In this document: piece by piece, positions 10,885-17,923 of the stretch | How the letters are laid out: each line of letters starts with the position of its first letter | How positions within the stretch are numbered: position 1 is the stretch's first letter | NCBI GenBank assembly: GCA_946553045.1 | Contig: CAMNRO010000002.1 | Span: 84,736 to 148,735 of the forward strand | Length of the DNA stretch: 64,000 nucleotides | Direction: 5' to 3' | Source of the DNA: an uncultured Porphyromonadaceae bacterium | GTDB taxonomy: Bacteria > Bacteroidota > Bacteroidia > Bacteroidales > Muribaculaceae | The notes under the pieces: model-generated | Told to the model about the DNA's origin: nothing | What the model saw: only the letters and a program-made list of their open reading frames with translations | Database searches by the model: none | Program-made: the position numbers and the translations under genes

Positions 10885-10920
10885 TAAAAAAAGAACCGAC
10901 GCCCTTTTGAGGTGTCGGTT
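10885..10920 (-). terminator. Intrinsic terminator between Met-rich leader ORF and metY (attenuator terminator)
   Basis: Minus strand AACCGACACC-TCAAAAG-GGCGTCGGTT-C-TTTTTTT: 10-bp stem with one A.C mismatch and a T7 tract, located ~30 nt before metY ATG. Confidence 0.85.
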
Positions 10921-10956
10921 CGCTGTTATTTATGTTGCTGGGTTAAGGCATATGCG

Positions 10957-11058
10957 TTACCGACACGGTGGAAATTCCATCATGCACATGACCATAGCCA
11001 TCATTTCCATACCTGCAGGCATGGGCTTCGTGGCTGTGTTGGTGTATGCGTATTTCAT
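10957..11058 (-). CDS. Methionine-rich leader peptide, 33 aa: MKYAYTNTATKPMPAGMEMMAMVMCMMEFPPCR
   Basis: Hand-translated from the reverse strand; 9 Met in 33 codons (8 in codons 13-27); stop followed by attenuator terminator; not in the supplied ORF track because it is short. Confidence 0.85.
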   Translation of the reverse strand: MKYAYTNTATKPMPAGMEMMAMVMCMMEFPPCR

Positions 11059-11078
11059 AATTTTGTCGGTTTCTGCTG

Positions 11079-14749: not shown

Positions 14750-17700
14750 ATGATAAAAAATGTAATTATTTCGTGGCTCTTGGCTTTGATTGTCGGCCTT
14801 CTGCCAGCTACGTTGAATGCATCGACTATCGAAATTGATAGTATACGATACAATAATGTTGACAATCATGCCGAGGTTGTTGGTTTTGTTGCTGGCCTGA
14901 CTTCGGCGAATATTGTTCCTGAAGTTGAGATAGATGGAGCGACCTATCCTGTGACTGTTATTAATGACAATGCTTTTAAGGCTTGCGCTACCTTGACAGA
15001 ATTGATATTGCCTGAGACTATATCTATAATCCGCAGCAGTGCGTTTAGACGTTGTGGTGGACTTAAAAGTGTTACTATACCTAATTCGGTAGTCTCAATT
15101 GGTAACAGTGCATTTGCTAACAGTGGACTCACTCGACTTTTTTTTAATGCTGAAAAATGCACTGTTTGCGGAGATTATGATTATCATGCGTTTCCGTCTG
15201 GATTATCGGAAGTGGTTATCGGGGAAAATGTAAAGATCATACCTGATTATTTCTTAATGGAGAATAGCAAGTTGGAAGATGTAGTTATTCCCAATTCGGT
15301 TGTAGAGATAGGAGATTATGCTTTTAGTGGTTGTTCAAAGTTGGCTAGTGTGAAGCTATCTGACTCTCTTGGCATTATAGGAGACAGCGCTTTTTCATAT
15401 TGTGACATTCTTTCCAGCATAACAATACCGAAGAGTGTGACAGGGCTGGGGCATCATCCTTTTTATTGTTGCGATAATTTGCAAACACTTGTTTTTAACG
15501 CTGAGAACTGTGAGAATTTGAGATTTTGGGAGTATGACAGTTTATTTCCTTCCTCTGTTTCGAATCTAACAATCGGAGAAACCGTAAAAAAAATACCTCT
15601 AAGATTCATTAGAGGAAGTGAGATTGTTAAATTGAAAATACCTAATTCCGTCACTACGATTGAAGAATATGCTTTTAGTGGGGCTGATTTGCTTAAGGAA
15701 TTAGAAATGGGAAATTCAGTTACAACAATTGGAGCTTATGCATTTTGGAATGGTGGCTTCGCAGAAGTGGTTATCCCAAATTCAGTTACTTCCATTGGTG
15801 AAGGCGCGTTTTCGCTTTGTAAATCGCTTTCTAAAGTTGCTATGCCTGAATCTCTTGAAAATCTGGAAAACAATGTCTTTGAAGGTTGTGAGTCTTTGGT
15901 CTCTATAACTCTACCCATGACTATAAAGACAATGGGCTATAGTGTGTTTAGTGGGTGTACCGCTCTTGAAAATATTGTATTGCATGACGACATTATTTCT
16001 ATAGGTTCTAGTGCTTTTTCAGATTGTGTTTCTCTTAAGAGTGTTTCTCTCCCTAAAAATTTGTCTGAAATATCTTCCCAGCTATTTAAGGGCTGTACTT
16101 CGCTTGTGAGTATTGATATTCCGAATAAGATTACTATAATTAGAGACAGAGCATTTGAAAACTGTAGTTCGCTTGTAGAAGTTCAACTGCCAGCAAATGT
16201 TTCTGAAATTTCATTGGAAGCATTTAGTGGTTGCACTTCTCTTGGTAATATCATTCTGCCTGATATGATTAATAAAATAGGTGAAGGCGCATTCCGGAAT
16301 TGCAGTCAGTTTAATAATATTCTTATTCCAGATAATGTCACGGAAATTGGTAAGGAAGCATTCAATGGTTGTAAAATGCTTGAGACTATTGAATTCAATG
16401 CGGTTGAATGTGAGTCAAGTGGAGCATTTCCTACATCTGTAAAAAATCTTATAATAGGAAATAAGGTTAAAAAGATACCACCCTTTTTGCTTAGTGATGG
16501 TAGTCTGATTGAACAATTGATAATTCCGAATTCAGTAACTTCAATTGGAGAAAGTGCATTTAAAAACTGCAAGAAATTAAAGTCGTTAATAATGGGTAGT
16601 GGAATAACACAAATTTCAAGTGGTGCTTTTAGCAATTGTTCAATTGCCAAGATTTTCTGGTTGGGTAACACACCTCCAGATAGTTATGTTTCGGCTCGTG
16701 TTAATTATGTCTCTAATGACAAATTTAAGTTTGATAATCAAAAAGTACTTCCATTTCTAAGTTCGAGATTCACAGTTGATGGTATTACTTATGTACTTAC
16801 AAGTCCGTCGGAAAGAACATGCGAAATAGTAGATTGTATTTATTCTCCTGAATATAGCGATTGTGTAGTAGATAGCGTTGTTGTAAATAAGGGAATAGAA
16901 TTAAAAGTAGATGGTATTAATACATATTCATTTTATGGCAATGAATATATTGATAATTTAAATTTAAAATCATGCACGTTTATAGATAATTCGGCATTTG
17001 AAGGCTGCTCTTCTATTCATGTCGTCGAAATCCCTGACAATACTACATCTCTGGGTTGGTCCGTTTTTTTGGGTTGCACAAGTCTTGTAAATGTTTATAT
17101 AGGCAAAGGTGTGACAAGTTTAGGATACCGTCTGTTTTCGGGTTGTACTGGTCTTGAATCTATAAATGTACCAGGTAATGTTGTCGGTGTAAACGATTAT
17201 GCGTTTGAGAACTGTAGGTCGCTGACAAATGTTGTTTTTGAAGATTCAGATAAACTATTATTTCTGGGATCTAATGGAGATAATCCTCTTTTTAATGATT
17301 GTCCATTGGAGAAAGTTTACATAGGTAGAGCACTTTATTATCGAGTAGCTCTTGCTTATGAAAAATACTTTTCGCCTTTTTGTAATAATAAACACCTACA
17401 ATATGTAGAAATATCGGATAGGGAGACGGAGATATACGTTTCTGAATTCTATGGTTGTTCAAGCTTAAAAAGTGTAAAGATAGGAGATGGCGTAACGGAA
17501 ATTGGGAAATATGCTTTTTCAGGCTGCTCCTCACTTGACTATTTCTCAGTAGGAACTCATGTGGAGTCGATAGGTGAAGAAGCCTTCTCTGACTGTGTTG
17601 GTCTGACAAAGCTTTATTCTTATTCAGCTGTTCCTCCTGCTTGTGGAAGTCAAGCTTTAGACGACATTAATAAGTGGGAGTGCACCCTATATGTTCCTGA

Positions 17701-17923
17701 GGAAAGTAAAAATGCCTATTCCTCTGCTCCGCAATGGAAGGAGTTTTTTTTCATGGAGGACGTCACCACTGCGGTTGAAGGTATTATTCCAAATGAAAAT
17801 AAACCGATTGAGATTTATACAATTTCAGGCGTCTGTGTTAAGAAAGACGCTGTTAAAGATGATATAATGCGTCTAGAGCCTGGGGTGTATATTATAGGAG
17901 GTAAAAAGGTGGTGAAGAGATAA
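14750..17923 (+). CDS. BspA-type leucine-rich repeat (LRR_5) secreted/surface protein with T9SS-like C-terminus
   Basis: 1057 aa; signal peptide; many ~23-aa repeats (IPNSVTSIGESAFKNCKKLKSL); C-terminal IEIYTISGVCVKKDAVKDDIMRLEPGVYIIGGKKVVKR. Confidence 0.92.
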   Translation: MIKNVIISWLLALIVGLLPATLNASTIEIDSIRYNNVDNHAEVVGFVAGLTSANIVPEVEIDGATYPVTVINDNAFKACATLTELILPETISIIRSSAFRRCGGLKSVTIPNSVVSIGNSAFANSGLTRLFFNAEKCTVCGDYDYHAFPSGLSEVVIGENVKIIPDYFLMENSKLEDVVIPNSVVEIGDYAFSGCSKLASVKLSDSLGIIGDSAFSYCDILSSITIPKSVTGLGHHPFYCCDNLQTLVFNAENCENLRFWEYDSLFPSSVSNLTIGETVKKIPLRFIRGSEIVKLKIPNSVTTIEEYAFSGADLLKELEMGNSVTTIGAYAFWNGGFAEVVIPNSVTSIGEGAFSLCKSLSKVAMPESLENLENNVFEGCESLVSITLPMTIKTMGYSVFSGCTALENIVLHDDIISIGSSAFSDCVSLKSVSLPKNLSEISSQLFKGCTSLVSIDIPNKITIIRDRAFENCSSLVEVQLPANVSEISLEAFSGCTSLGNIILPDMINKIGEGAFRNCSQFNNILIPDNVTEIGKEAFNGCKMLETIEFNAVECESSGAFPTSVKNLIIGNKVKKIPPFLLSDGSLIEQLIIPNSVTSIGESAFKNCKKLKSLIMGSGITQISSGAFSNCSIAKIFWLGNTPPDSYVSARVNYVSNDKFKFDNQKVLPFLSSRFTVDGITYVLTSPSERTCEIVDCIYSPEYSDCVVDSVVVNKGIELKVDGINTYSFYGNEYIDNLNLKSCTFIDNSAFEGCSSIHVVEIPDNTTSLGWSVFLGCTSLVNVYIGKGVTSLGYRLFSGCTGLESINVPGNVVGVNDYAFENCRSLTNVVFEDSDKLLFLGSNGDNPLFNDCPLEKVYIGRALYYRVALAYEKYFSPFCNNKHLQYVEISDRETEIYVSEFYGCSSLKSVKIGDGVTEIGKYAFSGCSSLDYFSVGTHVESIGEEAFSDCVGLTKLYSYSAVPPACGSQALDDINKWECTLYVPEESKNAYSSAPQWKEFFFMEDVTTAVEGIIPNENKPIEIYTISGVCVKKDAVKDDIMRLEPGVYIIGGKKVVKR

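Follow-up and report, generated by a model that had tools for sequence, protein, structure and literature searches.

The trp, his, thr, and phe attenuators of the Enterobacteria are built on a common plan: the leader peptide is rich in codons for the end product, an antiterminator helix (2:3) is the alternative of a terminator helix (3:4), a stalled ribosome exposes segment 2 and a ribosome at the stop codon masks it, and the first genes behind the leader make the amino acid that is sensed. The leader that precedes the metY gene described here is, or is predicted to be, alike in each of these points. Naville and Gautheret (2010; PMC2965389) noted that leader-peptide systems had, to their knowledge, been shown only in Proteobacteria and Actinobacteria, and they added the Firmicutes. 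In mycobacteria, leaderless short ORFs with polycysteine tracts have been reported in which the speed of the ribosome tunes the downstream genes (Canestrari et al., 2020, as summarized in PMC9031893). Concerning Bacteroidetes, Weinberg et al. (PMC2864571) listed the Bacteroid-trp RNA motif (RF01692) as a candidate cis-regulatory RNA, and a transcriptome study of Bacteroides thetaiotaomicron (PMC7366714) speaks of short ORFs that resemble leaders, none of them a methionine case in the excerpted passages.

The window, i.e., the whole stretch of 64,000 nucleotides that was analysed, carries on its minus strand the metY-metX-hom genes preceded by a 33-codon Met-rich leader ORF, four pairing segments and a terminator, with the murI gene located upstream of the leader. 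The features are given below in the order of transcription; the two promoter elements and the U-tract were read from the sequence.

11109-11106, minus strand: TTTG, putative upstream promoter element
11086-11079, minus strand: TACTTTTG (TAnnTTTG), putative promoter -7 element of the Bacteroidota type
11071-11064, minus strand: segment 1, AACCGACA, in the 5'UTR, candidate anti-antiterminator arm (sequence, duplex energy, group-level pairing)
11058-10957, minus strand: leader ORF, 33 codons, encoding MKYAYTNTATKPMPAGMEMMAMVMCMMEFPPCR*, with homologous Met-rich leaders known
11010-10978, minus strand: Met-codon run (codons 17-27), predicted ribosome stall site
10980-10978, minus strand: last Met codon of the leader, starting 14 nt ahead of segment 2
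10966-10959, minus strand: segment 2, GTGTCGGT, antiterminator 5' arm (sequence, duplexes, spacing, covariation)
10920-10911, minus strand: segment 3, AACCGACACC, terminator 5' arm and antiterminator 3' arm (sequence, covariation)
10903-10894, minus strand: segment 4, GGCGTCGGTT, terminator 3' arm (sequence, covariation)
10892-10886, minus strand: U-tract after segment 4 (C, then seven T)
10858-9566, minus strand: metY, O-acetylhomoserine aminocarboxypropyltransferase, first gene of the operon (TIGR01326 above cut-off)
9572-8553, minus strand: metX, homoserine O-acetyltransferase, second gene, overlapping the end of metY (in NCBIfam, TIGR01392 matches best, E 2e-100, but under the equivalog cut-off)
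8547-7339, minus strand: hom, homoserine dehydrogenase, third gene (PRK06349 above cut-off)

The operon behind the leader is thus devoted to methionine synthesis, i.e., it makes the amino acid that is presumably sensed. Methionine accounts for 9 of the 33 leader codons, 8 of them after the start and 7 among codons 17-27. We take TACTTTTG to be a -7 element from the general consensus of Bacteroides promoters; since it precedes the leader ORF, transcription probably starts near 11077, which would place segment 1 inside a 5'UTR of about 20 nt. Segment 2 covers the final sense codons, and its last base is the T of the TAA stop codon (10959-10957). A previous sequence-only reading had proposed this layout of four segments, with eight perfect pairs in 2:3 and seven in 1:2, and the minus-strand sequence bears out both the segments at these positions and the two pairings. 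The terminator, located between the leader ORF and metY, consists of a hairpin of -16.1 kcal/mol followed by seven U. Elsewhere in the window, on the plus strand (14750-17923), there is a 1057-residue ORF with repeated IPNSVTSIGxxAFxxC-like units that resembles, by eye, BspA-type leucine-rich repeats.

Of 20,000 dinucleotide-shuffled versions of the leader (156 nt), 0.04% contained eight nucleotides perfectly complementary to the terminator 5' arm, and 0.01% contained them near the end of the ORF; none combined them with a segment 1 of 7 nt in the 5'UTR. The minimum-energy fold of the complete window leader is composed of 1:2 and 3:4 (z = -3.15 versus shuffles).

Relatives of metY were taken from 80 genome contigs and from 40 places in genomes of the window's family, and they yielded 43 distinct leaders (window included) in which a Met-rich ORF and then a hairpin precede metY. 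They come from Muribaculaceae, from other Bacteroidales MAGs, and from a set of Alistipes including Alistipes sp. An66, and their commonest peptide tail is MMMxMCMCSRxSRV. A strict search for terminators with a U-run missed a dozen homologues, and hairpins were then sought with a weight for T content; the U-tracts are weak in some terminators (L027, L028, L022), and the hairpins of L032, L038, L046, and L062, which were wrong or over-extended, were reselected before the spacing analysis. The covariance model R1 has a low information content (0.59 bits per position). Its matches across the order at E values of 1e-4 to 1e-2, mostly generic terminators, were disregarded, and the counts comprise only L178, inspected by eye, and the full-length matches with E values under about 1e-10. 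Strong full-length matches were found only in the window's family, the Alistipes members having come through the metY search. In L171 and L178 (genomes G007 and G027), a class-1 Met leader and its terminator precede metX, there the first gene, and not metY, and L178 contains, by eye, a further compensated variant, GCGCCG with CGGCGC.

The 2:3 helix is present in all 43 leaders when the best available helix is taken for each of them, and the matched duplexes (-16.65 kcal/mol) are more stable than those obtained with the species permuted (-14.11 ± 0.33 kcal/mol; p about 5e-5, 43 leaders). In an alignment of segments 2, 3, and 4 (A1), made with MAFFT and with no structure supplied, 86% of the 2:3 cells are paired and 6 of the 9 pairs have changed on both sides. 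The cells changed on both sides number 26, against 8.3 ± 3.3 after shuffling, and none of 500 shuffles reached 26. Sliding the 2:3 partner by one column lowers the pairing to 45-51%, and slides of one to three columns give at most 51%. For instance, columns 71:137 hold 19 GC and 9 AU pairs, columns 73:135 hold 35 GC, 5 AU, and 1 UA, and at columns 74:134 the window has U-A, against C-G in 41 others. Mapped on the metY tree, five informative 2:3 pairs need at least 22 paired-state changes (5+7+7+2+1); few branches are fully supported, and the tree evidence for independent substitutions is limited. The terminator helix 3:4 covaries as well, in 8 of its 10 pairs. The antiterminator helix first proposed from the window alone therefore survives the comparison of homologous leaders.

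Counted from first base to first base, segment 2 follows the last Met codon at a median distance of 14 nt, and this distance lies within 10-16 nt in 39 of the 43 leaders, again with the best available helix per leader. In L009 and L033 the stop codon comes before segment 2, yet this distance is 15 nt, which argues that the position of the stall, and not the end of the peptide, is under selection. If the 3' edge of the ribosome is assumed to lie 13 nt downstream of the start of the A-site codon, segment 2 of the window would be wholly exposed as long as the ribosome is no further than codon 27 (the last Met) and covered once it has reached codon 30, and folding with the same assumed footprint places the switch point between codons 27 and 29. 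Under this assumption, folding predicts 2:3 in 41 of the 43 leaders with a ribosome at the last Met codon and in none of them with a ribosome at the stop. The modelled geometry is consistent with the two ribosome states put forward earlier, in which stalling on the Met codons would free segment 2 for segment 3 and arrival at the stop would cover segment 2 and let 3:4 form.

The elements themselves and their conservation, together with the covariation of both helices (2:3 and 3:4) and the spacing, point to transcription attenuation as in the trp operon, mediated by a ribosome and reading the supply of methionyl-tRNA, an assignment that we consider very probable. From them we infer leader translation, stalling, termination or readthrough in the cell, and a response to methionine. 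The leader peptide would be translated behind the RNA polymerase. When Met-tRNA is short, the ribosome would stall in the Met run with its 3' edge ending just before segment 2, and the free segment 2 would pair with segment 3 before segment 4 is made, the polymerase then reading through into metY-metX-hom. When methionine is plentiful, a ribosome at the stop codon would mask segment 2, 3:4 would form, and transcription would end before metY. At equilibrium in the full-length window RNA, 3:4 wins over 2:3 in all ribosome states, as would be expected of a kinetic switch, and thus antitermination must be kinetic and would require that 2:3 form ahead of segment 4.

Concerning untranslated RNA, the earlier proposal was that it could form 1:2 together with 3:4. 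The duplex of the window 5'UTR with segment 2 has an energy of -11.3 kcal/mol, and 4% of shuffled UTRs do as well; the duplex energies being a weak signal, the comparison was redone with partition functions and swapped UTRs. Among the leaders whose promoter could be recognised (39), segment 2 paired with its own UTR at a mean of 0.446, compared with 0.288 ± 0.031 for shuffled and 0.318 ± 0.026 for swapped UTRs, and this pairing exceeded 0.5 in 20 leaders, where 10.5 were expected. No conserved sequence or helix for segment 1 was found among these 39 leaders, and segment 2 pairs inside the ORF instead in 10 leaders. With segment 3 out but segment 4 not, folding also recovers the antiterminator, the naked window RNA giving at equilibrium 0.98 for 2:3 and 0.00 for 1:2; 2:3 beats 1:2 at this decision point in most other leaders also, being above 0.5 in 26 of 39. 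The proposed combination of 1:2 and 3:4 holds only for the full-length fold or if 1:2 is kinetically trapped. As for 1:2 as an anti-antiterminator, its seven pairs and the pairing above shuffled and swapped UTRs at the group level stand, but there is no conserved helix. Because 2:3 outcompetes 1:2 before segment 4 appears, the untranslated default is uncertain, an OFF state through 1:2 being possible. The default might even be reversed, with the untranslated leader ON, unlike the OFF of trp, and safe against a failure of initiation. This idea, which we regard as rather doubtful, arises because methionine is also the initiator, so that severe starvation could block initiation at the leader itself, and because the naked RNA favours 2:3.

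The stall could have another origin, i.e., a nascent-peptide arrest in which methionine or S-adenosylmethionine triggers stalling through the C-terminus of the leader (typically MMMxMCMCSRxSRV), instead of Met codons awaiting charged tRNA. This would fit the similar tail of many leaders and the Cys codons that recur among the Met codons, but the RNA complementarity persists in leaders with a different tail, i.e., the window (EFPPCR), L017 (VKPPCRV), L033, L009, and L016. Moreover, the SRxSRV residues are largely explained by segment 2 read as codons, and segment 2 is untranslated in L009 and L033, all of which makes peptide arrest improbable. Even less credit can be given to the idea that the hairpin, as an intrinsic terminator, constitutively ends the transcript of the upstream murI gene, the Met-rich ORF and the complementarity being incidental. 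A terminator-like hairpin does sit between murI and metY, but the leader is separated from murI by a promoter-like element, the 8-nt complement has the chance frequency of 0.04% given above, and the leader shows conservation, fixed spacing and a covariation over 43 leaders that already contradicts this explanation.

In many bacteria met genes are under the control of SAM riboswitches, and the operon could in principle depend on a metabolite riboswitch of the SAM class or on a T-box, with the ORF incidental. In fact, among 20 relatives, two score above cut-off for the SAM-I riboswitch (RF00162), and these two belong to other families of the order. However, no Rfam family reached its gathering score in the window, where the leader region gave weak sub-threshold, terminator-like matches only, no RF00162 match was found in the window's genome (G000, 93% complete), and the conserved elements are the codons plus 2:3 and 3:4, so that we hold such control to be extremely unlikely. 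The attenuator reading Met-tRNA shares with the SAM-I riboswitch and the Met T-box the control of methionine genes by RNA and termination, but these sense SAM or uncharged tRNA directly, and the Rfam scan found neither in the window.

Other leaders were met among the relatives. A second, different Met leader lies about 120-260 nt upstream of metY in L064, L065, L069, L071, L073-L076, L079, and L081-L086. Its ORF ends in M-x-M-R-M-C-R-stop, a near-invariant ATGCGAATGTGCCGNTAGGCRC forms a hairpin across the stop codon (100% paired), and there is another covarying hairpin with a loop near TACGC, without a U-tract terminator. No Rfam match was found in the six loci scanned, and an arrest peptide or Rho are guesses at its mechanism. 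In L130 (genome G702, match 1501-1633), from another family of the order, the leader peptide MKSSKTIIINKISMSTMTTSTPVRRWW and then a terminator precede a probable aspartokinase gene (by eye). This is likely a Thr/Ile attenuator and suggests that classical attenuation is more general in Bacteroidales.

The metY leader can now be compared with the systems mentioned at the beginning. Lopatovskaya and colleagues are said to have surveyed attenuation across bacteria. In the literature searched, whose scope does not include that work (Lopatovskaya et al., 2010, cited in PMC4833913), no methionine leader or attenuator was found; the working principle is that of the known trp-type attenuators, and the methionine specificity was not found there. 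The mycobacterial polycysteine ORFs, compared by their description, are alike in having a tract of codons that specify a sulphur-containing amino acid within a short upstream ORF, but they are leaderless, belong to Actinobacteria and contain cysteine. RF01692, whose association with trp we take from the motif name, concerns another amino acid and has no match in the window in the Rfam scan. With respect to the trp, his, thr, and phe attenuators, the metY leader would be methionine-specific and is found in Bacteroidota. Segment 1, which in those attenuators belongs to the control-codon region, is part of the 5'UTR in the window and, probably, in about half the homologues. Methionine is, in addition, a single-codon amino acid and the initiator, and thus the leader would test cleanly how an attenuator behaves once translation is unable to start. 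If the proposal is true, there is attenuation with covariation evidence in gut Bacteroidota, in a leader outside the Rfam families and in a host genome apparently without a SAM-I riboswitch, and methionine joins the amino acids read by classical attenuation.
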